Source: Desulfobacterales bacterium HSG17
Lineage (GTDB): Bacteria; Desulfobacterota; Desulfobacteria; Desulfobacterales; Desulfococcaceae
Length of the DNA: 10,870 nucleotides
NCBI GenBank assembly: GCA_030377945.1
Contig: JAUCGD010000100.1
Location: 1 to 10,870 of the forward strand
Direction of reading: 5' to 3'
Below, piece after piece: positions 1 to 10,870 of the stretch. Both the position numbers and the translations under genes were made by a program. The stretch's first letter is position 1. Each line of letters starts with the position of its first letter. The notes under the pieces were generated by a model. The model ran no database searches. It was not told the origin of the DNA and saw nothing but the letters and a program-made list of their open reading frames with translations.

Positions 1-20
1 TTTTATTAAATTATATAAAG

Positions 21-27
21 AAAGGAG
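21..27 (+). promoter_or_regulatory. Ribosome binding site of the TonB-dependent receptor
   Basis: AAAGGAG lies seven bases before the ATG at 35 and supports that start. The upstream promoter is not visible because only 34 bases precede the gene. Confidence 0.8.
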
Positions 28-34
28 AAATTTC

Positions 35-2074
35 ATGAGCAGAAAATCTCTATGTATGCACACAATTCTAAGTATTGCAGTCATACTTGTCTGCCATGCA
101 GCCCTTGTTTGTGCACAGACCTCTGTTGAAAAAAAACTAACAAAAGAAGAAAGTTTTACCAACCTGAGCCTTGAGGATCTGATGAGCATTCAGGTAACCT
201 CTGTCAGCAAGAAAGCACAGAATCTTTCAGACAGTGCTGCTGCCATTTTTGTTATTACTGACAGAGATATTATACGTTCCGGTGCCACCAGTATTCCTGA
301 TGCCCTGCGAATGGTTCCCGGACTTCATGTAGCCCGTATTGATTCCAATAAATGGGCTGTGAGCAGCCGGGGGTTCAACAGCCGTTTTACTGAAAAACTT
401 CTGGTTCTTATTGATGGGCGCAGCGTTTATTCTCCATACTTCTCAGGTGTATATTGGGAAGTGCAGGATGTGCTGCTGGAGGATGTGGATAGGATTGAAG
501 TCATTCGCGGTCCCGGGGCCTCATTATGGGGGGCCAACGCTGTAAACGGTGTGATTAACATCATCTCCAAACACTCGGCCGACACCCGCAGCGGTCTGGT
601 AAGTGCCGGAGGTGGAAATGCAGAACAGCTCTTCGGCGGTGCCCGTTACGGGGCTTCTTTGGGAAAAAGCACCTATGGGCGTATATATGCCAAGTATTTC
701 AAACGGGATGAGTTTGAATATAAAGCAGGAGGAAATGCCGGAGATGAGTGGGATACCTTTCGTACCGGATTCCGCATGGATTCAAAGCTGAGCGGGCCTG
801 ACAATTTTACTTTTCAGGGGGATATCTATACAGGGGATATTAACCAGAGACTTGTTGAAGTTCCGTTTTCGGAACCGCCTTATTCCTTAGTTGCAGAAGA
901 CGATATCAGGGTGTCGGGCGGAAATCTCCTCGTCCGCTGGCAGCGCATACTTTCGTCTGTTTCCGAATTCACGCTTCAGGCATACTATGACTGGACAAAA
1001 CGGGAAGACTTGTATGCACATGAGAAGCGGGACAGTTTTGATCTTGACTTTCAACATCGGTTTGCCCTGGCCGACAGCCATGACGTTATATGGGGTGTAC
1101 GATACCGATATACCTATGACGATTTCACCAATATGTTTATTGCAGAACTTGATCCGGACAGCCGCGGAGATAATCTTTTCAGTGCGTTTATCCAGGATGA
1201 GATTTCTATTGTGCAAGATAAATTGTGGTTTACTCTGGGAGCCAAAGTCGAACACAATGACTACAGCGGATATGAAATACAGCCGAGCGGGAGAGTGCTC
1301 TGGGCACCTCATTCAGATCACAGGTTCTGGACTGCCATATCACGCGCGGTGCGCACACCATCACGGTTGGAACATGACGGACGGATTCATACTGTTACGA
1401 TTCCTCCTTCCTCTCCTATGGTGCCTTTGCCCATAGCAATCAGTGTTGACGGAAATACTTCTTATGATTCCGAAGATCTGATGGCTTACGAAGCAGGCTA
1501 CCGTTTTGTGCCGAATCAGTCTTTTTCACTGGACTTCACTGGATTTTATAACGATTATGATAAGTTAAGAATACTTACACCATCGGAACCCATATTGAAG
1601 GATACATATATTGAGCAGGTATCAATTGCTAAAAACAATGCTTCAGGCGAGGTTTACGGGCTGGAAGTGAGCGGTGTATGGCAGGCGGCTGATTGGTTGA
1701 ACATGAATCTTGCATACAGTTTTTTAAATACCGACGTAATTGTGGGAGGAATTGGGGGAAAAGCACCTAAACACCAGATATCCCTGCGCACAAGTCTCAA
1801 TCCTTTAGATAACCTTGATATGGATTTCTGGCTTCGTTATGTGGATGATATAGAAGCAGACTATACAAAATCAGGGTCCTATGGACAATATGAGATTGAC
1901 GGCTATTTGACCGTTGATCTGCGAATGGCCTGGCATTTTACGGAAAATGCGGAATTCATCGCGGTCGGACAGAATCTCCTGGATGAAGGTCATATGGAAT
2001 TTGTTCAGGAAATTTTTCTTGTACCGACCGAAGTTCCCCGGAGTTTTTACGGACAGGTAAAATATTACTTTTAA
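35..2074 (+). CDS. TonB-dependent outer-membrane receptor, ligand unknown
   Basis: A complete 679-residue TonB-dependent receptor, expected to form a plugged beta-barrel in the outer membrane and import or sense a scarce ligand using TonB energy. Residues 1-27 are a signal peptide (basic start, hydrophobic core, cleavage after VCA). A TonB-box-like stretch, IQVTSVS at 52-58, leads into the plug domain (about 58-180), which has the family motifs SGATSIPDALRMVPGL, VLIDGRSVY, RIEVIRGPGASLWGANA and VNGVINIIS. The rest is alternating aromatic and polar barrel sequence ending in a C-terminal Phe, the usual barrel-assembly signal. The length is normal for the family. The ATG is chosen because an AAAGGAG ribosome binding site lies seven bases upstream. 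It is the first gene of an operon with a YfiR protein and a hybrid kinase, so a signalling role is plausible. Siderophore, cobalamin or other ligands cannot be told apart from sequence alone. Confidence 0.93.
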   Translation: MSRKSLCMHTILSIAVILVCHAALVCAQTSVEKKLTKEESFTNLSLEDLMSIQVTSVSKKAQNLSDSAAAIFVITDRDIIRSGATSIPDALRMVPGLHVARIDSNKWAVSSRGFNSRFTEKLLVLIDGRSVYSPYFSGVYWEVQDVLLEDVDRIEVIRGPGASLWGANAVNGVINIISKHSADTRSGLVSAGGGNAEQLFGGARYGASLGKSTYGRIYAKYFKRDEFEYKAGGNAGDEWDTFRTGFRMDSKLSGPDNFTFQGDIYTGDINQRLVEVPFSEPPYSLVAEDDIRVSGGNLLVRWQRILSSVSEFTLQAYYDWTKREDLYAHEKRDSFDLDFQHRFALADSHDVIWGVRYRYTYDDFTNMFIAELDPDSRGDNLFSAFIQDEISIVQDKLWFTLGAKVEHNDYSGYEIQPSGRVLWAPHSDHRFWTAISRAVRTPSRLEHDGRIHTVTIPPSSPMVPLPIAISVDGNTSYDSEDLMAYEAGYRFVPNQSFSLDFTGFYNDYDKLRILTPSEPILKDTYIEQVSIAKNNASGEVYGLEVSGVWQAADWLNMNLAYSFLNTDVIVGGIGGKAPKHQISLRTSLNPLDNLDMDFWLRYVDDIEADYTKSGSYGQYEIDGYLTVDLRMAWHFTENAEFIAVGQNLLDEGHMEFVQEIFLVPTEVPRSFYGQVKYYF

Positions 2075-2083
2075 GGAATTCAG

Positions 2084-2659
2084 ATGGAAAAACACGGATG
2101 CAGGGTAAACCTGTATAGCAGGATTCTTTGCTTTATTATTTTGATTTTAATGTTTTTTTTCCCCGTGCATAAAAGTGTCTTTGCTGACGATACCTTGAAA
2201 GAGTATTCTGTAAAAGCTGCATTTACACTCAATTTTGCCAGATATGCAAAATGGCCGGACGGGTCTTTTGCAGAGAAATCATCCCCCTGCCTCCTTCAAG
2301 TTGTGGGAGACAGGAGCATTGAACAGGTTTTCCAAACCGTTTCAGGAGAGAAAATCGGTTCCCGTAAACTCATGGTCAATCTTGGTGATAATTCACATGA
2401 TACAGGCATCTTTCATATGATTTTTATCTGCCGTTCTGTTAATCCCTCGGATGTGTCACAAATTCTTGCTTCTGTTAAAGGAAAGCCTGTTCTAACCATA
2501 GGTGAAAAAAAAGAATTCATCAAACAAGGCGGAATGATCAATTTTTTTACAAAAAACGAACGTCTCTATTTTGAAGTAAATATGGATATCCTCAGACAGC
2601 AAAATGTAAAGCTCAGCTCTCGTCTTTTAAAACTGGCAATACTGGTAGGTGACAAATGA
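2084..2659 (+). CDS. YfiR-family (DUF4154) periplasmic protein
   Basis: A complete 191-residue protein of the YfiR/DUF4154 family, close to the usual family length. Residues 1-34 form a signal peptide (long hydrophobic run at 14-27, cleavage after SVFA), so the mature protein should be periplasmic. Family hallmarks seen are [15 protein letters not shown] at 44-58, a VVGD turn, the core GKPVLTIGE and GGMINFF segments, and a C-terminal [12 protein letters not shown] helix. The mature part has only two cysteines (C69 and C116), which could form a disulfide. In Pseudomonas, YfiR is a periplasmic repressor of the diguanylate cyclase YfiN and is released by the outer-membrane lipoprotein YfiB. Here the gene lies nine bases after the receptor gene, with an AAGGA site overlapping the receptor stop, and overlaps the following CHASE8-like kinase gene. 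By inference it regulates that kinase. I do not assign the symbol because the partner is not a cyclase. Confidence 0.9.
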
Positions 2660-5565
2660 GAATAAAACGCATAAGATTACAAGCAGGTAATATTTCCATC
2701 AGAACAAAGCTTATTCTTTTATTAAGCCTGACAACCGTGCTGGCCTTGTCCCTGGTTTTTACTGCGCTGGTTATTCATGAAAAAAGAAGCGCCAGGAAAA
2801 ATCTTGTGGGAGAATTATGTTCAATGGCTGATGTTGTGGCCTTAAACAGCGGTGCTGCCATGTCGTTTAATGATGAAGATGCTGCCCGCGAAAATCTGGC
2901 ATCCCTGTCTGCAAAACCTGGAATTATTGTTGCCGTCCTGTATGATTTGGATGGAAATGAGTATAGTAAATTCAGCCGGGATGGAATCAATGCACAATCG
3001 CTGATTGCCGAGATACAAAATATCTATCCTGATCGAAAGCTAATGCTGAATGAATTGACCGGACTGAAAACAATCACCTGGCAGACCGATCAATATGTGC
3101 ATGTAATACGACCCGTCCTTATACAGGGAACCCTGATGGGGGGAATTCATCTGATTGATGATATGCAGCAATTAAATGTTAGACTTCACACATATTATAT
3201 GGTTGTATCAAGTATTATGGCGATTACACTCCTGATTGTATTCATCCTGTCTGCCTGGATGCAGAAGATTTTTACAAAGCCCTTATCTGATGTTATACAA
3301 TCCATGACCAGGGTGACACATGAAAAAAACTATGACGTAAGTGTGAAAAAGCAGAGTAATGATGAATTCGGCATGCTGGTTGACCACTTTAACAATATGA
3401 TAGGCGAGATTCATAACCGTGACCAGGAACTGAAATCATACAGCCTAAACCTTGAAAACATGATTGAGGTACGTACCATTGATCTTGAGAAAGCAAAAGA
3501 TGAAGCTGAAGAAGCAAGTCGGGCCAAATCCCAGTTTCTGGCAAATATGAGTCATGAAATCCGAACCCCAATGAACGGTGTACTGGGTATGGCTGAATTG
3601 TTGATTGACGCAGATCTGAATGATGAGCAGTTTCGGTTTGTCAGAACCATTCAGAATTCCGGAGAATCATTACTGGCCATTATCAATGATATTCTGGATT
3701 TTTCCAAAATCGAAGCAGGCAAACTTGAACTTGAAGTTATTGAATTCAATGTGCAGCTTCTTATTGAAGATGTTGTTCAACTGCTTGCAGCACGGGCATA
3801 TGCCAAAAAGATTGAATTATCCCTTATTATTCCCGAAAAAAATCATTATTATCTAAAAGGTGATCCCACGCGGATTCGGCAGGTTCTCGTCAATCTTATG
3901 GGTAATGCCATAAAGTTTACAGAGCAGGGTGAGGTTGTGGTTCGGGTTTCTATAACACCCCAGGGGTATAACCGTGTGCTGCTGCATGTATCCATCCGTG
4001 ATACCGGGGTTGGAATCAGCCCGGAAGATATGCAAAGGCTTTTCCAGCCTTTTTCCCAGGCTGACGGCTCCACAACCCGTAAATATGGAGGAACCGGACT
4101 GGGTCTGACAATATCAAGGAAAATCATATTGATGATGGGAGGAGAAATCAATTGTGAAAGCATTCCCGGTAAAGGTTCTGACTTTTTTTTCAATATACTT
4201 CTCGAAGTCGGTTCAAAAGAGCAAAACCAAAGCCGTCTGCCCGGTATAAGCGAGTTGAAAGGGCTTAAAGTTCTCATTATTGACGATAATTCAACCAATC
4301 AGAAAATTCTCGAAAAACAGACCGATTCATGGGGTGTGAAAAATGACACTGCGGCCAGCGGCCCGGAAGGGATAAAAAAACTTTTTTCAGCACAGGCAAA
4401 AGAAGAACCTTTTGATCTGGTTCTTCTTGATATGGATATGCCGAAAATGAACGGCATTGAGGTGGCAGAACAAATTCAGGCGGATACATCCTTATCCAAT
4501 ACAAAAATGATTCTGCTGACATCAATCGGATTACGCGGTGATTCCGTTCTCGCTAAAAAAGCCGGTTTCTCCGCATACCTGACCAAGCCGGTTCTCCAAT
4601 CCGACCTCCATGCTGCATTGTTGAAAGTAATTGATTACCCGTCAGAAAGCAAAACCCGGCAATTTGTCACCCGCCACAGCATTGCCGAAGAGAAGATGAG
4701 ATTCAACCGGCATATTCTAGTGGTGGAAGATAATCCTACGAACCAACTGGTTGCCGTTTCCATGCTCAGGGCACTGGGATGCCGAGCTGATATTGCCTCA
4801 AACGGTCAGGAAGCGGTAGATTCCTTATGGAATACCCAGTATGATCTGATCCTTATGGATTGTCAGATGCCTGTATTGGACGGATATCAAACTACTGCGG
4901 CCATCAGGCGACTGGAAAAGAAAAATGTCCTGGAAAAATATACCCCCATTGTAGCATTAACTGCAAATGCTCTTGAGGGTGACAGGGAAAAATGTCTGGC
5001 TGCGGGAATGGACGATTATATGAGCAAACCTTTTAAGCAATCCGGGATTCAGGCTGTCCTGGAACGATGGTTCAACGATAATACGCCAGCAAAGCCTGAA
5101 GTCGTGCCGGAAAAAATCAGAGCGGAAAAAGAAGATAAAAATTCGAAAGAGGATGCTTCCCATGAAGATCTAATGGACACAGAAAACAATGAAATAATTG
5201 ACTTTAAAGTACTCCGCTTACTGGAAGAACTCCAGATTGAAGGGGAACCAAGCATTGTAGCCTCAATAATCAATGCTTTCCTCAACTGTTCCATGTCTCA
5301 ACTTCCCCAATTGCAAAAATCGTTTTCGGAGAATGACATTAAAACCGTGCAGCAATTGGCGCACAGTTTCAAATCCAGTAGTGCCAATGTGGGAGCTGTC
5401 AGATTGTCTGAGATGAGCAGTGAACTTGAAATGAACTGTAAAAAGGGTTCTATGGAAAATATTGCTGATCTCATTTCAGCCATTGAAACGGAATTTGTGC
5501 GGGTGAAGGATGAATTAACAAAACAGAAAGGAAATCCTGGCAAAAGAAATACTATAATCCTATGA
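2656..5565 (+). CDS. CHASE8-like hybrid histidine kinase with two receivers and Hpt
   Basis: A 969-residue inner-membrane phosphorelay kinase. In order: transmembrane helix 18-40; periplasmic domain about 41-180, whose first part ([12 protein letters not shown] then an LYDLDG strand) resembles CHASE8, the sensor domain of YfiN; second helix 181-202; HAMP about 204-256; coiled coil; HisKA with the phospho-accepting His at H300 ([10 protein letters not shown]); HATPase with N-box N417, DTGVGIS at 449-455 and GGTGLGLT at 478-485; receiver 1 (D543, D544, acceptor D592, T622, K644); receiver 2 (E691, D692, acceptor D735, T769, K791); a charged linker; and Hpt with H903 ([14 protein letters not shown]). 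All key residues are present, so a full His-Asp-His relay is expected, as in ArcB- or BarA-type kinases. The start codon overlaps the yfiR-like stop as ATGA, implying translational coupling; its own Shine-Dalgarno (AGGTG) is weak. No cognate output regulator lies in the window. Confidence 0.93.
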
Positions 5566-5735
5566 ACACAAAATACAGTTGGATCTGATCCAGGCCGTCT
5601 AAAAACGTTATTATCTGCCGTAAATTTTTATCATTTTTTTGGACCTAAAAAATTTCTCTTGGTGTTTCTCAACAATTTAAGGATATTAGCATGGTTAACA
5701 TTCTCATGTATTGATTTTAAAAATTTGATATTTAT

Positions 5736-5741
5736 TATAAT
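5736..5741 (+). promoter_or_regulatory. Possible promoter -10 element for the exporter gene, in the 5566-5804 spacer
   Basis: The 239-base spacer between the kinase and exporter genes is very AT-rich. It holds a perfect TATAAT here, with TTGATT at 5711-5716 as a possible -35. The 19-base spacing is longer than ideal, and AT-rich DNA gives such matches by chance, so this is tentative. The location, about 64 bases before the TTG start and after a complete operon, fits an independent promoter. I saw no GC-rich stem followed by a T-run after the kinase stop, and no other supportable feature in the spacer. Confidence 0.35.
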
Positions 5742-5792
5742 ATAAGTTTAACAGATCGCTTAAAAAAAGCATTTAATTAACCTCAATTATAC

Positions 5793-5798
5793 AAGGAG
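5793..5798 (+). promoter_or_regulatory. Ribosome binding site that fixes the TTG start of the exporter
   Basis: AAGGAG lies six bases upstream of TTG at 5805. The first in-frame ATG is about sixty codons later and would remove the first two membrane helices, so the TTG is the best start. Confidence 0.8.
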
Positions 5799-5804
5799 AA
5801 AAAA

Positions 5805-6419
5805 TTGCCAGGTACAGAATTTTTTATAACATCATTGCTTGTTGTGTTAGTTCCCGGAACCGGGGTTATCTACACTGTTTCCACAGGTCTTTTTCTTGGA
5901 TGGCGGGCTGCAATTGCTGCGGCATTTGGCTGTACAGCCGGGATTATTCCCCATCTTCTTGCCAGTGTCCTGGGTCTTTCAATGCTTATTCACACAAGTG
6001 CTGTTGCATTTCAAATACTTAAATATGCAGGCGCTGCCTATCTTTTATTCATAGCCTGGTCAATGTGGCGTGAAACAGGTGTGCTTAAATTTGATTCCAG
6101 TCATAAAAAAACCGGTTTATGGAAGACAGCGCTCAGAGGTTTTCTGATAAATATTCTAAACCCAAAACTTTCAATTTTCTTTCTGGCTTTTCTGCCTCTT
6201 TTTGTACCGGCTGATTCTGTAAATCCAACCTTGCAGATGTCTTTTTTGAGCAGTTTTTTTATGGGATTAACTTTGGTTATATTTATACTTTACGGTATAT
6301 TTGCACATAATGTAAGCGCCTATCTAGTAAACTCACCCAAAGCTGTTGTCAGATCTCAGCGCACTTTTGCTGTTATCTTTGCTTTGCTTGGTGCAAAGCT
6401 TGCTGTTGCTGAGCAGTAG
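5805..6419 (+). CDS. LysE/RhtB-family amino-acid exporter
   Basis: A 204-residue integral inner-membrane protein, normal length for the LysE/RhtB family of amino-acid and small-metabolite exporters. About six hydrophobic segments are visible, near residues 6-28, 38-62, 68-88, 112-137, 146-168 and 181-202. Family features are the Pro-Gly near the N-terminus (P17-G18, here PGTGVIY where many members have PGP), the GCTAG small-residue stretch in helix 2, the KYAGAAYLLFIAWSMWR segment in helix 3, and the GFLINILNPK motif with FFLAFLPLF before the fourth loop. The exported substrate cannot be predicted; homoserine, threonine, lysine and other substrates are all known in the family. It starts with TTG behind AAGGAG. 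It stands alone, separated from the upstream operon by 239 bases and convergent with the downstream kinase at a distance of 16 bases, so a functional link to either signalling cassette is not supported. Confidence 0.88.
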   Translation: MPGTEFFITSLLVVLVPGTGVIYTVSTGLFLGWRAAIAAAFGCTAGIIPHLLASVLGLSMLIHTSAVAFQILKYAGAAYLLFIAWSMWRETGVLKFDSSHKKTGLWKTALRGFLINILNPKLSIFFLAFLPLFVPADSVNPTLQMSFLSSFFMGLTLVIFILYGIFAHNVSAYLVNSPKAVVRSQRTFAVIFALLGAKLAVAEQ

Positions 6420-6435
6420 ATATTCAGGGTCCGTG

Positions 6436-9075
6436 TTAAACCGAGATGCCGGAAGATTTGATTTTATCCACTATATCAGGAAAAACTTCCAAAACCTTTC
6501 CTATTTCATCAATATCCATGCTCTGGTTGCATGTGTATAATTCTTTCCCATATTCAATCAATAATTCAATATTGTATTTCAAGCCAAGCTCTTTTACATC
6601 CCTGGTAAAATCCGAAATTTCATCAAGGTAGAACATTTCGTTTATTGTGTTCCACCTGGGAATGAATTCATTCTCTAAAATACGGATAAGTTCAGGTGGC
6701 AGACTGGTTTTTACCGGTTCCCGGATGGTTGGAGGCTTTGATTTCCAGTTATCCTGTTCTTTTGCTTTGTTTTTGTATGGCAGAAATTTTTTTAATTCCT
6801 CAATAAGTTGACTCCTGCCAATGGGTTTTCTTAAATACCCGTCAAACAAGTCCTTAATCCGTTCTTCATCATCTTTCATTGCAGCAGCTGTGCAGGCAAT
6901 AACAGGTATATTTTTATATTTTTCATTATCCTTGATCTTTTTCGTTATTTCATAGCCGTCTTTGCCCGGCATTCTCAAGTCCATGAGAATCAGACGGGGT
7001 ATATGTCCCATCTGAAACATATCCAGGGCATATTGGCCGCAGTGTGCATCAATAATGCTAATTGAGGTGTCCTGCAAATATCCTTTGATAAGTTCCCTGT
7101 TGTAATCAATATCATCAACTATCATAATGTCTGCCGGATCAAAAATCACATATTTATAATCTGAAACAAGGTTAAAGATTTCTGTTTTCTTTTCATCCTT
7201 AAATTTAATATCTGAAAACTCAATCTTAAAGCAGCTTCCTTTTCCAAGCTCACTTTCAAGGGAAATTCTGCCGTTCATCATTTCAACCAGCCGGCTGCTA
7301 ATTGTCAAGCCCAGGCCCGTACCGCCGTATTCCTTTGTATTTTGTCCTTCCTGCTGCTTGAATCTTTTAAAAATGACAGACTGCTGCTCCTTGGGTATTC
7401 CTATGCCTGTGTCTTCAACCTCCAGCACAAGGTGTGACAGATTCGAATCATTTTCCCTGTCCTTTGTGTAACCTGCAAATATCTTCACATACCCCTTTGG
7501 TGTGAATTTCAGCGAATTTCCAACCAGGTTAACCAGGATCTGCCGAACCTTGACCTCATCCATGAACAGGATTTCCGGCATAAACCTCTCAATTTCTATT
7601 TTTAGTTCAATATTTTTTTCCAGGAATTTATTCATAAATATTGACCGGACCTCATCCAGCAAATCCATAATGATTATGGGTTCTATCAGTATATCCAGTT
7701 TACCGGCCTCTATTTTTGACAGGTCAAGAATATCATTAACAAGGGAAAGTAGACCTTTTCCGCTGGTATAAATGTTATTACAATAATTTTGATGCACAGG
7801 TTCTTTGATCTGATTCATCAAAATTTCACTAAAGCCCAGGATAGCGTTCATTGGGGTTCGGATTTCATGGCTCATATTTGCCAAAAACATGCTTTTTGCC
7901 TGATTAGCTTTTTCAGCAGCTTTTTGGGCCTTTTGCATTTCTATGGTAGCATATTCGCGCCTTACAACTTCCTGCTGCAATTGCTTGTTGGTCAGCAGGA
8001 GTTTCTCAGTGCGTTCCTTAACCAGGGATTCCAATTGATTCCGGTGCCGGTGTATGATATCAAGCATCTCGTTAAAAGCTGTGCCTAATTGTGCAATTTC
8101 ATCATTGTGTTTAAAAACAAATCTGGCCTGGTCGTCTCCAGCTTTGATCTGCGTTACTACCCCGGACATGTAGCGGATGGGATCAACCAAGTTTTTAGCA
8201 ATAAAATAAATAAGATAAATAAGAAATAAAAGAGTAATCCCGGCTGAAATATAAGATTGATACTGTATTCGGGTACGCAGTTTCTCACCTGTTTCAATGG
8301 CTATCCCGGACAGGGCTTCCATCATTCCTGACATATTTTCAAAAAGCATTGTCAACTCACCTGAAATATCATCAAACTGAAAATTGATCTCCTTTATCTT
8401 TTTTTCCAGGGTAAAATCATGTTGAATCAAGTCATCAAATTTCTTCATGTAGGACTCAATACGATTATCCATCATGGCAGATTTGGAAACCCGGGTTCGT
8501 ACAAATGCAAACACCATTTGAAGAGCCTGATATTCGGAATTATTGCGACTGTTGCTGTAACGATCTAAAAATATGTGCATGTTTAACAATGATTTTAAAA
8601 GCTCAGGTTCTTGACTGAACAGGATTGCAGAAGACAGCATTTGATAAGTGGAAGTTATCTGGGTCAGGTTCAGGCGCTGCTCTGTTTTAAACTGGATCAA
8701 CCGGTTGAAAAGTTCCTCGTATTGAGCAAGGAGTAAGGATATTTTCTGCATATCCAGGCATAATTCTTCTCCGAATAATATCGGATCAAAACCTTGGGCC
8801 CTATCCTGGATACTCTCAATTAACAGCCCGAAATGCTGTTCTGCATCAGGATGGCTTCGGGCCTGGACAACTTTTTCCCAGAACCTGATTTTCCAGAATT
8901 GCTTTCCCAGGCAAAGGATTTCCTGTTCAATAATTGCCGCAGCCTGAACCTTTTCCAGGCTGGCAGACAGTTTGCTCTGAAATCCTAAAAGAGCTGCATA
9001 GGAAAAACTAAACAGGATCAGCATCAGTGCTGCAATAAGGAAATAGCGCTGTCTTGCGGTTCTGATTGCCGGCAT
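6436..9075 (-). CDS. Hybrid histidine kinase with helical periplasmic sensor, receiver and His-less Hpt-like C-terminus
   Basis: An 879-residue inner-membrane hybrid kinase. In order: transmembrane helix 11-32; periplasmic region about 33-274, rich in predicted helix and not matching a sensor family I can name confidently; second helix 275-293; HAMP about 295-347 (DPIRYMSGVV start); coiled coil 350-395; HisKA with H403 ([10 protein letters not shown]); HATPase with N520, DTGIGIP starting at D555 and GGTGLGL; and one receiver with D654, D655, acceptor D699 and K750. Residues 792-879 form a helical domain resembling Hpt, but R825 sits where the phospho-histidine is expected and the region has no His. 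The gene starts four bases after the stop of the tandem binding-protein gene, so they are co-transcribed. By analogy with TorT-TorS, the kinase probably reads the state of that binding protein. A weak GGGA is the only Shine-Dalgarno seen. No cognate regulator is in the window. Confidence 0.92.
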   Translation of the reverse strand: MPAIRTARQRYFLIAALMLILFSFSYAALLGFQSKLSASLEKVQAAAIIEQEILCLGKQFWKIRFWEKVVQARSHPDAEQHFGLLIESIQDRAQGFDPILFGEELCLDMQKISLLLAQYEELFNRLIQFKTEQRLNLTQITSTYQMLSSAILFSQEPELLKSLLNMHIFLDRYSNSRNNSEYQALQMVFAFVRTRVSKSAMMDNRIESYMKKFDDLIQHDFTLEKKIKEINFQFDDISGELTMLFENMSGMMEALSGIAIETGEKLRTRIQYQSYISAGITLLFLIYLIYFIAKNLVDPIRYMSGVVTQIKAGDDQARFVFKHNDEIAQLGTAFNEMLDIIHRHRNQLESLVKERTEKLLLTNKQLQQEVVRREYATIEMQKAQKAAEKANQAKSMFLANMSHEIRTPMNAILGFSEILMNQIKEPVHQNYCNNIYTSGKGLLSLVNDILDLSKIEAGKLDILIEPIIIMDLLDEVRSIFMNKFLEKNIELKIEIERFMPEILFMDEVKVRQILVNLVGNSLKFTPKGYVKIFAGYTKDRENDSNLSHLVLEVEDTGIGIPKEQQSVIFKRFKQQEGQNTKEYGGTGLGLTISSRLVEMMNGRISLESELGKGSCFKIEFSDIKFKDEKKTEIFNLVSDYKYVIFDPADIMIVDDIDYNRELIKGYLQDTSISIIDAHCGQYALDMFQMGHIPRLILMDLRMPGKDGYEITKKIKDNEKYKNIPVIACTAAAMKDDEERIKDLFDGYLRKPIGRSQLIEELKKFLPYKNKAKEQDNWKSKPPTIREPVKTSLPPELIRILENEFIPRWNTINEMFYLDEISDFTRDVKELGLKYNIELLIEYGKELYTCNQSMDIDEIGKVLEVFPDIVDKIKSSGISV

Positions 9076-9079
9076 AATG

Positions 9080-10831
9080 CTATTTTCCCGTAATCAGTTT
9101 CAAATCAACAGGAATTCTCAAAGGCAATGTATCTCCCCTTAAAACTTTTGCAGCAGCCTGGACAGCTTTCCATCCCATTTCCGCAGGTTTTTGGGCAATC
9201 GTAGCTGTAAGCTGTTTTTTTTTTATTGCTTCAAGTGCTTTTGAAACAGCGTCAAAGCCCACAAGCACTTTTGGTAAAGGGGTTTCAGATGTTTCAAATG
9301 CCTGGATAACTCCAAGTATCATTTCATCATTATGTGCAAACACAGCATCCACCTCCAGATTGTTTGATAAAAGACGCGTTGTAATTTCCATAGCCCTGAC
9401 CTGCTTAAAATCAGCGATTTCCCGGATGCTTATTTTAATATCAGGATAGGCTGCCATAACTTTGTTAAAACCTGTTCCGCGTTCATGAGCAGCAGATGTT
9501 CCGGGAATCCCCTCAAACTCCATAACCCTTCCCCTGCCTTCCAATTGTTGAGCGATAAATTCAGCAGCCATTTGTCCCCCGGCAAGATTATCCGAAGCAA
9601 CATGTGAAACAATAAGATCATCCCTTGAAGACTTCCGGTCAACAGTTAAGATTTTTATGCCTTTTGTCTGGGCTATTTCCATGGCCGGAACAACAGATTC
9701 AGCATTGGTGGGATTCAGAATTATAATATCCACCTTATCATCAATAAATTTTTTTAAGCTGAGCAATTGCTTCACATCATCGTCCTGGGCATCCTCAGTG
9801 ATGAGTTGAAGTCCAAACAGTTTGGCAGCTTCTTTTGCACCGCTATGCAAAGCTGTAAAAAACGGATTTGAAAGGCGCGAGATGGAAAGCCCGATTTTTT
9901 TATCAAACCCTTCAAAAGTAATAAGATCCAGGGGAGTGGATTTGTAATCAGGAATCTTGTTTCTAATCAGGCCCATATCTGCAAGCTCAACTCCAAAGGC
10001 TCCCATCATCTCAGGATGCTGTTCAATAGTTGCGTGCATGAGCCTGTTTCTCATGGCTGCGCGGGCTTCGTCAATATTGTCATAAGCTCCAACCCATACC
10101 TTTCCCCCAAGACCGTTCAAATCAAGAGCTTGAATCACACCCATAGCCATGCTGTCATTTGCACAGAGAACAGCATCAACCTTCCCGTGCTTTTCAAGAA
10201 GGCGGGTCATCAGGGAAAAAGCTTCATCAGTGTGCCAGTTGGCTGTTTCACTGGCAATCACCTTGATTCGGGATTTGGATGTTAAAGATTCCATAAATCC
10301 CTGTTTTCTTAAATCAGCGTTTTCAACACCGCGTATGCCTTCTATGATGATGGCTTTTCCGGTTCCGTTTAATTGTTTTTTTATGTATTCCCCCACCATT
10401 GCAGCGCCGGCCCGGTTATCCGATCCAACAAAGGGGATGGATATTCTGTGTTCTTTCAGGGTTTCCTTGTGAAACGGATTGTCAATATTAATAACAACAA
10501 TGCCTTTTTCCAGTGCTTTTTTACAAACAGGGATCAATTTTTTTGAATCAGCAGGTGCAATCACAATGGCTCCGTAGCCCCTTGCCACAAGATTCTCCAT
10601 AATACCGATCTGCCTTTCAACCTCAGTCTCCCGTTCAATGCCAAACACCTCCAGTTGAGTCCCGCTTTTTTGTGCATAAGCTACTGCACCATCCCGCATC
10701 TTGATAAAAAACGGATTGGAAAGTGCTTTCATAACCAGGGCGGTTTTACCCTCATTTCCGGCTTGAACCGAACCGCAAAACAGAAAAAAAATTCCAAGAC
10801 AGATTAAAGCGGACAGGATTTTTTTAATCAT
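9080..10831 (-). CDS. Tandem ribose-binding-protein-like periplasmic protein (two type I domains fused)
   Basis: A 583-residue secreted protein, about twice the length of RbsB-type binding proteins because it holds two full copies. Residues 1-24 are a signal peptide cleaved after VQA; the nearby C19 lacks a lipobox. Domain 1 spans about 29-300 and domain 2 about 311-583. Both begin with an SNPFF motif (38-42 and 321-325) and both carry ND near a GVIQA helix. Compared with E. coli RbsB from memory, domain 2 keeps all the expected sugar contacts (F324, F325, N373, D398, R399, R451, F475, N501, D527, Q547) and ends PVDLKL like RbsB. Domain 1 keeps several (F41, F42, D117, R175, N225, D251, Q271) but has A92, N118 and W199 at three of them. 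Domain 2 may bind ribose or a similar sugar, while domain 1 probably has another ligand. The adjacent kinase and lack of transporter genes suggest sensing rather than uptake. The ATG follows a strong AAGGAGGA. Confidence 0.9.
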   Translation of the reverse strand: MIKKILSALICLGIFFLFCGSVQAGNEGKTALVMKALSNPFFIKMRDGAVAYAQKSGTQLEVFGIERETEVERQIGIMENLVARGYGAIVIAPADSKKLIPVCKKALEKGIVVINIDNPFHKETLKEHRISIPFVGSDNRAGAAMVGEYIKKQLNGTGKAIIIEGIRGVENADLRKQGFMESLTSKSRIKVIASETANWHTDEAFSLMTRLLEKHGKVDAVLCANDSMAMGVIQALDLNGLGGKVWVGAYDNIDEARAAMRNRLMHATIEQHPEMMGAFGVELADMGLIRNKIPDYKSTPLDLITFEGFDKKIGLSISRLSNPFFTALHSGAKEAAKLFGLQLITEDAQDDDVKQLLSLKKFIDDKVDIIILNPTNAESVVPAMEIAQTKGIKILTVDRKSSRDDLIVSHVASDNLAGGQMAAEFIAQQLEGRGRVMEFEGIPGTSAAHERGTGFNKVMAAYPDIKISIREIADFKQVRAMEITTRLLSNNLEVDAVFAHNDEMILGVIQAFETSETPLPKVLVGFDAVSKALEAIKKKQLTATIAQKPAEMGWKAVQAAAKVLRGDTLPLRIPVDLKLITGK

Positions 10832-10835
10832 GGTG

Positions 10836-10843
10836 TCCTCCTT
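10836..10843 (-). promoter_or_regulatory. Strong ribosome binding site of the tandem binding protein
   Basis: Read on the - strand, AAGGAGGA lies about four to five bases before the ATG at 10831 and is the strongest Shine-Dalgarno in the window. It fits high expression of a periplasmic protein relative to its kinase, whose own site is weak. Only 39 bases are visible upstream of the start, so the promoter is not seen. Confidence 0.75.
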
Positions 10844-10870
10844 TCTATTCTAACATTAGTAGAATTCCCT

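Follow-up and report, generated by a model that had tools for sequence, protein, structure and literature searches.

We analyzed a stretch of 10,870 nucleotides from Desulfobacterales bacterium HSG17 (contig JAUCGD010000100.1, positions 1 to 10,870), hereafter called the window, in which bases 35 to 5565 encode a TonB-dependent receptor, a secreted protein of the YfiR family and a hybrid histidine kinase with a CHASE8 sensor. The layout claimed in the original prediction, namely three contiguous genes coupled by a nine-base gap and an ATGA overlap, proved exact to the base when checked against the open reading frames (ORFs). The genes and the features discussed below are as follows.

35..2074, + strand: TonB-dependent receptor gene (679 amino acids, stop TAA; ORF list)
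155..184, + strand: receptor motif FTNLSLEDLM, residues 41-50, a marker of YfiR-linked receptors and candidate peptide for docking YfiR (alignments, matrix)
188..208, + strand: TonB-box-like stretch IQVTSVS, receptor residues 52-58 (alignment position)
2075..2083, + strand: nine-base gap from the receptor stop to the yfiR ATG at 2084 (read from the sequence)
2084..2659, + strand: gene for the YfiR-like secreted protein (191 amino acids; TOL_0243 family)
2564..2638, + strand: YfiR C-terminal region LYFEVN...LLKLA, counterpart of the YfiB-binding and proposed YfiN-binding surface of Pseudomonas aeruginosa (alignment; PMC4655355, PMC4887326)
2656..2659, + strand: ATGA overlap of the yfiR stop TGA (2657-2659) with the kinase ATG at 2656 (sequence)
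2656..5565, + strand: hybrid histidine kinase gene, CHASE8-HAMP-HisKA-HATPase-REC-REC-Hpt (969 amino acids; ORF list, Pfam, motifs)
2797..3012, + strand: CHASE8 periplasmic sensor domain, kinase residues 48-119 (PF17152, 42.6 bits, cut-off 27)
2854..2868, + strand: AAMSF, kinase residues 67-71, counterpart of YfiN AAVVF, the proposed YfiR-binding site (alignment; PMC3375315)

Pfam recognized only plug (72.4 bits) and TonB barrel (100.7 bits) families in the receptor, in which an STN domain was not found; its score against the NCBIfam model of the TOL_0244 family (NF053590), 618.7 bits, is close to but under the cut-off of 645. The second product clearly belongs to the YfiR/HmsC-like family (PF13689, 131.9 bits for a cut-off of 24.9) and passes NF053591, the model of TOL_0243 YfiR-like proteins, with 126 bits against 125; the profile of our YfiR alignment A1 matches solved YfiR chains with an E value of 3.5e-12. 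The kinase sensor had been claimed to be CHASE8-like, with which the profile search agrees, and Pfam places HAMP, HisKA, HATPase_c, two receiver stretches and Hpt in the same protein, GGDEF being absent. The expected phospho-acceptors are present by motif at His300, Asp592, Asp735 and His903, an assignment we presume from the general role of such motifs. In a fold model of the sensor region (285 residues, 32 sequences, pLDDT 89.5), which Foldseek finds to resemble extracellular kinase sensor domains of the WalK type, Phe71 of the AAMSF motif lies in the loop joining the first long helix (15-70) to the next (74-86); this residue is kept in 95% of 62 CHASE8 sequences. Against NF053592, the model for histidine kinases near YfiR-like proteins, the kinase scores 159.6 bits and fails the cut-off of 194. 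The window thus contains the same three families as the NCBIfam trio NF053590/NF053591/NF053592, with only its YfiR passing the cut-off; the names of these models give a neighbourhood and no mechanism.

The system resembles YfiBNR of P. aeruginosa and YfiR-DgcN-YfiB of Escherichia coli in having a periplasmic YfiR-family protein with a conserved C-terminal surface, a CHASE8 partner with an AAxxF motif and a third partner in the outer membrane. It differs from YfiBNR in that this third partner is not the OmpA-like lipoprotein YfiB but a TonB receptor, that a hybrid kinase takes the place of the GGDEF cyclase as CHASE8 partner, and that its YfiR is devoid of both known disulfide positions (occupied by Gln72, Phe110, Ile146 and Asn153) and fails NF053586, the model of the regulatory sequestration protein sequest_YfiR (40.4 bits, cut-off 85). 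Among 148 YfiR sequences Cys72 (65%) and Cys110 (82%) are common, whereas cysteine is outside the four commonest residues at the positions of Cys145 and Cys152. The cysteines of the window YfiR are Cys69 and Cys116, plus two in the signal region. The C-terminal surface ranks with the best conserved stretches in the same 148 proteins (Phe163 92%, Leu182 97%, Ala185 86%), and in P. aeruginosa it is this part of YfiR that forms the pocket in which the unfolded N-terminal linker of YfiB places Phe57 or Met59, a region also proposed to bind YfiN (PMC4655355, PMC4887326). The interface residues are conserved, and direct repression of the kinase by YfiR is predicted by analogy with YfiBNR. We classify the window system as a variant of the YfiR-CHASE8 module and not as a member of YfiBNR.

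The recurrence of the gene trio is far above chance, as judged by neighbourhood counts. A genome scan with the YfiR alignment gave 474 confirmed relatives, the best 80 of which (L001-L080) contain 83 YfiR ORFs above 30 bits. Requiring that, on the strand of YfiR, a receptor precede it and a CHASE8 protein follow it, we found 62 full trios, distributed over 60 of the 80 loci and seven named phyla, with four loci unplaced; six more ORFs have the receptor upstream with CHASE8 not called (one at a contig end), two have the receptor downstream, one leaves no room to tell, and the other 12 are weighed below. Since these loci were selected by similarity to the window, we drew 198 Desulfobacterota genomes evenly. 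PF13689 occurs in 25 of them, at 32 places over the cut-off, and full trios stand at 26 of the 31 places fetched, or 27 of 32 counting L006; at two further places the receptor lies downstream of YfiR. Matched by eye, 30 of the 38 CHASE8 places over the cut-off in these genomes adjoin YfiR and eight do not. Similarly, among the matches listed, 26 receptor places exceed 440 bits with NF053590 (the next place has 343 bits), and by eye 20 of these are directly beside YfiR, two stand at YfiR loci as the outer member of a receptor tandem, one is a contig-end fragment and three are orphans (L113-L115). By the rule for full trios given above, 21 of 30 short Pseudomonadota loci with 1.5-kb flanks (L116-L145) are full trios. 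The conservation that the original prediction had left to be checked is therefore found in several phyla. Plasmids yielded four records with 25.8-30.1% identity, and a search of viral contigs yielded no relatives.

Several variants of the arrangement were seen. Tandem receptors precede a single YfiR at L085, L090, L151 and L025, as if two inputs shared one adaptor, and in L051 (6993-9460) and L057 (6811-9278) the receptor-YfiR pair is followed by a homocysteine S-methyltransferase/MTHFR protein, with no CHASE8 gene. Genome G310 (L127, L146, L151-L155) has seven YfiR-family places over the cut-off; at L151, L155 and one place of L152 a receptor lies beside YfiR and a CHASE8 gene was not found, and L146 (1042-3636, - strand) is a natural fusion of an N-terminal YfiR domain (residues 50-189) to a HisKA-HATPase-REC kinase, with no CHASE8 match.

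That the receptor occupies the place of YfiB, as had been proposed, is supported by a census of Pseudomonadota, in which the two are alternative neighbours of YfiR. Our sample comprised 299 genomes, 70 of them with PF13689 at a total of 94 places over the cut-off; wide flanks were obtained for 64 places (the other 30 being L116-L145) and a YfiR ORF was called in 62. Counting genes on the same strand within 3.3 kb of YfiR, these 62 loci contain a TonB receptor in 38 cases, a YfiB-like protein in eight, both in none and neither in 16, some of which lie at contig ends. The exclusion observed in this one census has a Fisher p of 2e-4, uncorrected for relatedness and obtained with unequal sensitivities, since the search for YfiB used a single E. 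coli sequence and that for receptors a profile. A CHASE8-GGDEF protein is present in all eight YfiB cases. In L050, L072, L153, L245, L255, L257 and L258 the receptor-YfiR pair is accompanied by a CHASE8-GGDEF or a CHASE8-GGDEF-EAL protein, and these loci are YfiNR systems with a receptor standing where YfiB would. A phmmer search with E. coli YfiB gave no YfiB-like ORF in the window. Of note, eleven Pseudomonadota loci show the order YfiR, CHASE8 kinase, receptor (L212, L214, L215, L220, L221, L225, L227, L228, L239, L240 and L244).

Receptors linked to YfiR carry a distinctive N-terminal motif. In the receptor alignment FTNLSLEDLM stands directly ahead of IQVTSVS, a putative TonB box by its position. 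In the Desulfobacterota draw, YfiR-linked receptors and the three orphans align to NF053590 from the first five positions of the profile, whereas the other receptors among the matches listed start at about position 6 to 22; the L112 receptor, which is near YfiR but not adjacent to it, starts at position 3. Across 101 full-length receptors adjacent to YfiR, including that of the window, Leu49 is invariant and Glu47 (88%), Met50 (75%) and Ser45 (72%) are well kept. For comparison we took 40 receptors without YfiR nearby (37 unlinked plus the three orphans), all from Desulfobacterota; they derive from 38 places hand-picked from the top of the NF053590 match list, with L163 dropped for its cut start, and so form a strict, not a random, control. 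In most of them the columns before the TonB box are gaps or hold different residues, the three motif-positive rows being the orphans, whose genomes have YfiR elsewhere.

A 13-column matrix trained on the 101 adjacent receptors was then applied to 32 YfiR-linked receptors from other Pseudomonadota loci, and 28 of these outrank all 37 unlinked receptors (area under the curve 0.94). The comparison leaves out the orphans, which score 23-27, and the L260 receptor, where no YfiR ORF was called; for the test receptors L213, L224 and L241 the same genomes also supplied a training row from another locus. The matrix was used in place of a regular expression, which missed 16 of the 101 adjacent receptors and 12 of the 32 in the Pseudomonadota set; many of the misses are visibly degenerate forms of the motif, with L147, L150, L216, L234 and L241 weak or doubtful. 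The specificity observed for the motif extends to whole genomes. A strict DNA pattern matched in two of the 198 Desulfobacterota genomes, both times in YfiR-linked receptors, and a looser pattern then gave 11 matches, three in non-receptor frames and eight in receptors, of which six directly adjoin YfiR and two are outer members of receptor tandems at YfiR loci; the reversed pattern, used as control on the same genomes, gave no match. A tree of the plug and barrel (88 hand-chosen rows, quick method) distributes the linked receptors among several clades and shows four changes between linked and unlinked states when near rows are left out; counting near rows as others, there are eight changes, at least six of which are forced by starred branches. 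Because linked receptors are spread over several clades, one barrel lineage is insufficient to explain the motif.

Exclusion, gene order and motif support a YfiB-like role for the receptor, although we infer every binding step. We propose, with a probability of about 0.55, that the three genes form one trans-envelope unit, a variant of YfiBNR in which an N-terminal peptide of the receptor competes with CHASE8 for YfiR. By analogy with YfiBNR, the C-terminal surface of YfiR would bind the CHASE8 domain and lock the kinase in one state, and the TonB receptor would substitute for YfiB as outer-membrane partner, its periplasmic LSLEELM-type peptide ahead of the TonB-box-like stretch giving this YfiR surface a second place to dock. 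The exposure of this peptide could change when the receptor captures its ligand or is pulled by TonB, so that YfiR would shuttle between receptor and kinase and thereby switch the phosphorelay His300-Asp592/Asp735-His903. A hydrophobic peptide of the receptor is a plausible competitor because the YfiB linker uses the conserved pocket of YfiR and AAMSF matches AAVVF. Gene content, domain identity and conservation make the architecture well supported, whereas the mechanism is unproven, since we infer YfiR-CHASE8 binding, YfiR-motif binding, the direction of control and the ligand.

Several observations weigh against this proposal. Twelve of the 83 YfiR ORFs had no receptor found beside them, 11 of these being accompanied by CHASE8, and so the operon does not always include a receptor. 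YfiB-like matches in the window and L001-L145 comprised the E. coli control and weak hits in L044 (40.6 bits, 6.7 kb away) and L040 (40.9 bits); in the latter, which lies outside the census, an OmpA protein upstream of the receptor is on the same strand as YfiR and 2.7 kb from it. Since L040 counts as having both by the 3.3-kb rule, the exclusion holds in the census and is imperfect outside it. Four of the 32 test receptors fail to outscore the unlinked ones, and the orphans keep the motif without an adjoining YfiR; the motif could predate the link with YfiR or serve TonB. The modelling of a YfiR-receptor complex called for by the original prediction gave no confident docking: in the AlphaFold2 model of a read-through receptor-YfiR fusion both proteins fold and the motif has a mean pLDDT of 45, a result judged without coordinates or interface scores that neither proves nor excludes binding. 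Mutual information over 96 receptor-YfiR pairs likewise showed no enrichment at the motif, the top couplings being scattered over the receptor. One covariation pair, receptor Met50 with YfiR Leu184 (rank 9), was indistinguishable from noise and was not used.

Among the alternatives, the one that survives best is that the receptor is an ordinary transporter importing a small ligand, which the YfiR pocket senses and reports to CHASE8 with no contact between receptor and YfiR. This is consistent with the binding of vitamin B6 and tryptophan by P. aeruginosa YfiR in the YfiB pocket, with Kd values in the tens of mmol/L (PMC4887326), and with a sevenfold increase of TOL_0244 seen by proteomics in cells growing on n-C28 alkane (PMC6304351), the one experimental clue to the receptor in the papers examined here. 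We nevertheless regard it as unlikely, for a transporter needs no such motif, yet the motif tracks YfiR linkage across several barrel lineages, and receptor and YfiB never co-occur in the census, as expected of proteins sharing one job. Also unlikely is that certain receptor classes use the motif as an extended element for TonB binding or plug folding, its link to YfiR being due to shared descent alone. The position of the motif directly before the TonB-box-like stretch, its retention by the orphans and its undocked state in the AlphaFold2 fusion would all fit such an element, but the linked receptors are not one clade in our quick tree and all eight whole-genome matches inside receptors lie at YfiR loci. 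We consider it improbable that the genes are co-transcribed and mechanistically separate, YfiR and the kinase sensing the envelope or redox state with the receptor as a regulated output gene: a redox-sensing role has been suggested for YfiR in YfiBNR (PMC4655355) and some YfiR-CHASE8 pairs have no receptor, but the window YfiR has neither known disulfide position, cysteine is outside the four commonest residues at the Cys145/Cys152 positions though Cys72 and Cys110 are common, and the receptor accompanies YfiR in differing gene orders.

Returning to competition of receptor and kinase for YfiR, the output of the relay can be followed in the relatives. Loci L001-L112 contain 51 CHASE8 kinases longer than 780 residues, six of them at contig ends, leaving 45 assessable. 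Downstream of 23 there is a match to a REC-PAS-GGDEF-EAL profile, reduced to 22 because L063 is a REC-PAS kinase by another profile score. In 21 of these the regulator starts between an 85-base overlap and three bases past the kinase, and in L036 it follows after 669 bases; three shorter kinases also have such a match within 1.2 kb. The ten regulators scanned all have REC, PAS (under the Pfam cut-off in L005) and GGDEF, and nine have EAL; REC-GerE or single REC proteins occur at other loci. The original prediction described the YfiR system as apparently rewired to a phosphorelay. A general departure from cyclic di-GMP (c-di-GMP) is contradicted, because 22 of the 45 kinases precede a REC-GGDEF(-EAL) regulator and because CHASE8-GGDEF partners, too, are found with the receptor-YfiR pair; in much of the family the signal probably goes to c-di-GMP.

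In six of the seven best-matching loci (L001-L007) a REC-PAS-GGDEF-EAL protein comes after the kinase, the exception being L004, whose contig ends, and the relay in loci of this type probably ends in c-di-GMP turnover. In the window, 239 bases without a listed ORF follow base 5565; neither a REC-PAS-GGDEF-EAL gene nor a remnant of one was found at 5566-5804, and a tblastn search matched only the window's own receivers. The window relay would need a regulator encoded elsewhere. Next to this gap is a gene for a LysE-type exporter (5805-6419, + strand; Pfam), located between two kinase systems. The second is a signalling pair on the minus strand (6436-10831), in which a 583-residue protein with two tandem RbsB-like binding domains (Pfam/NCBIfam scan) adjoins an 879-residue hybrid kinase matching the TorS model under its cut-off.

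TonB receptors are known to signal mainly via STN domains and sigma factors. In FecA-FecR-FecI, a TonB receptor with an STN domain reports across the envelope through a FecR-like anti-sigma and an ECF sigma factor. The window receptor is likewise proposed to report across the envelope but differs from FecA in that an STN domain was not found in it and that the genes downstream of it are those for YfiR and a kinase; no FecR-like anti-sigma or ECF sigma factor is among the six main ORFs of the window, scanned from base 1.

Parts of this picture are already known, namely the linked NCBIfam models for the trio and YfiR-YfiN modules with kinase outputs. Distant YfiNR modules that have kinases in place of GGDEF and mostly lack YfiB, including that of Desulfobacterium autotrophicum HRM2, were described by Malone et al. 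(2012; PMC3375315). The word TonB is absent from the main text of that paper, and its accessible part describes no receptor, motif or REC-GGDEF-EAL partner for these modules. In the library of openly available papers searched, we found none linking a TonB receptor with YfiR. New here are the breadth of the trio, which is widespread across several bacterial phyla, the alternation of receptor and YfiB, the motif of linked receptors and the frequent REC-PAS-GGDEF-EAL neighbour in the relatives.

More tentatively, these receptors may represent a second widespread class of TonB-receptor signalling, in which a peptide before the TonB box, not an STN domain, docks YfiR in competition with CHASE8 proteins. 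If so, an outer-membrane cue feeding YfiR could be tested with one peptide and two soluble proteins. An outer-membrane receptor could govern any CHASE8 output, whether kinase, cyclase or GGDEF-EAL protein, and the canonical lipoprotein YfiB would be the less common type of outer-membrane partner. A large set of unassigned receptors in several phyla would then gain a signalling role, and CHASE8 a general input.

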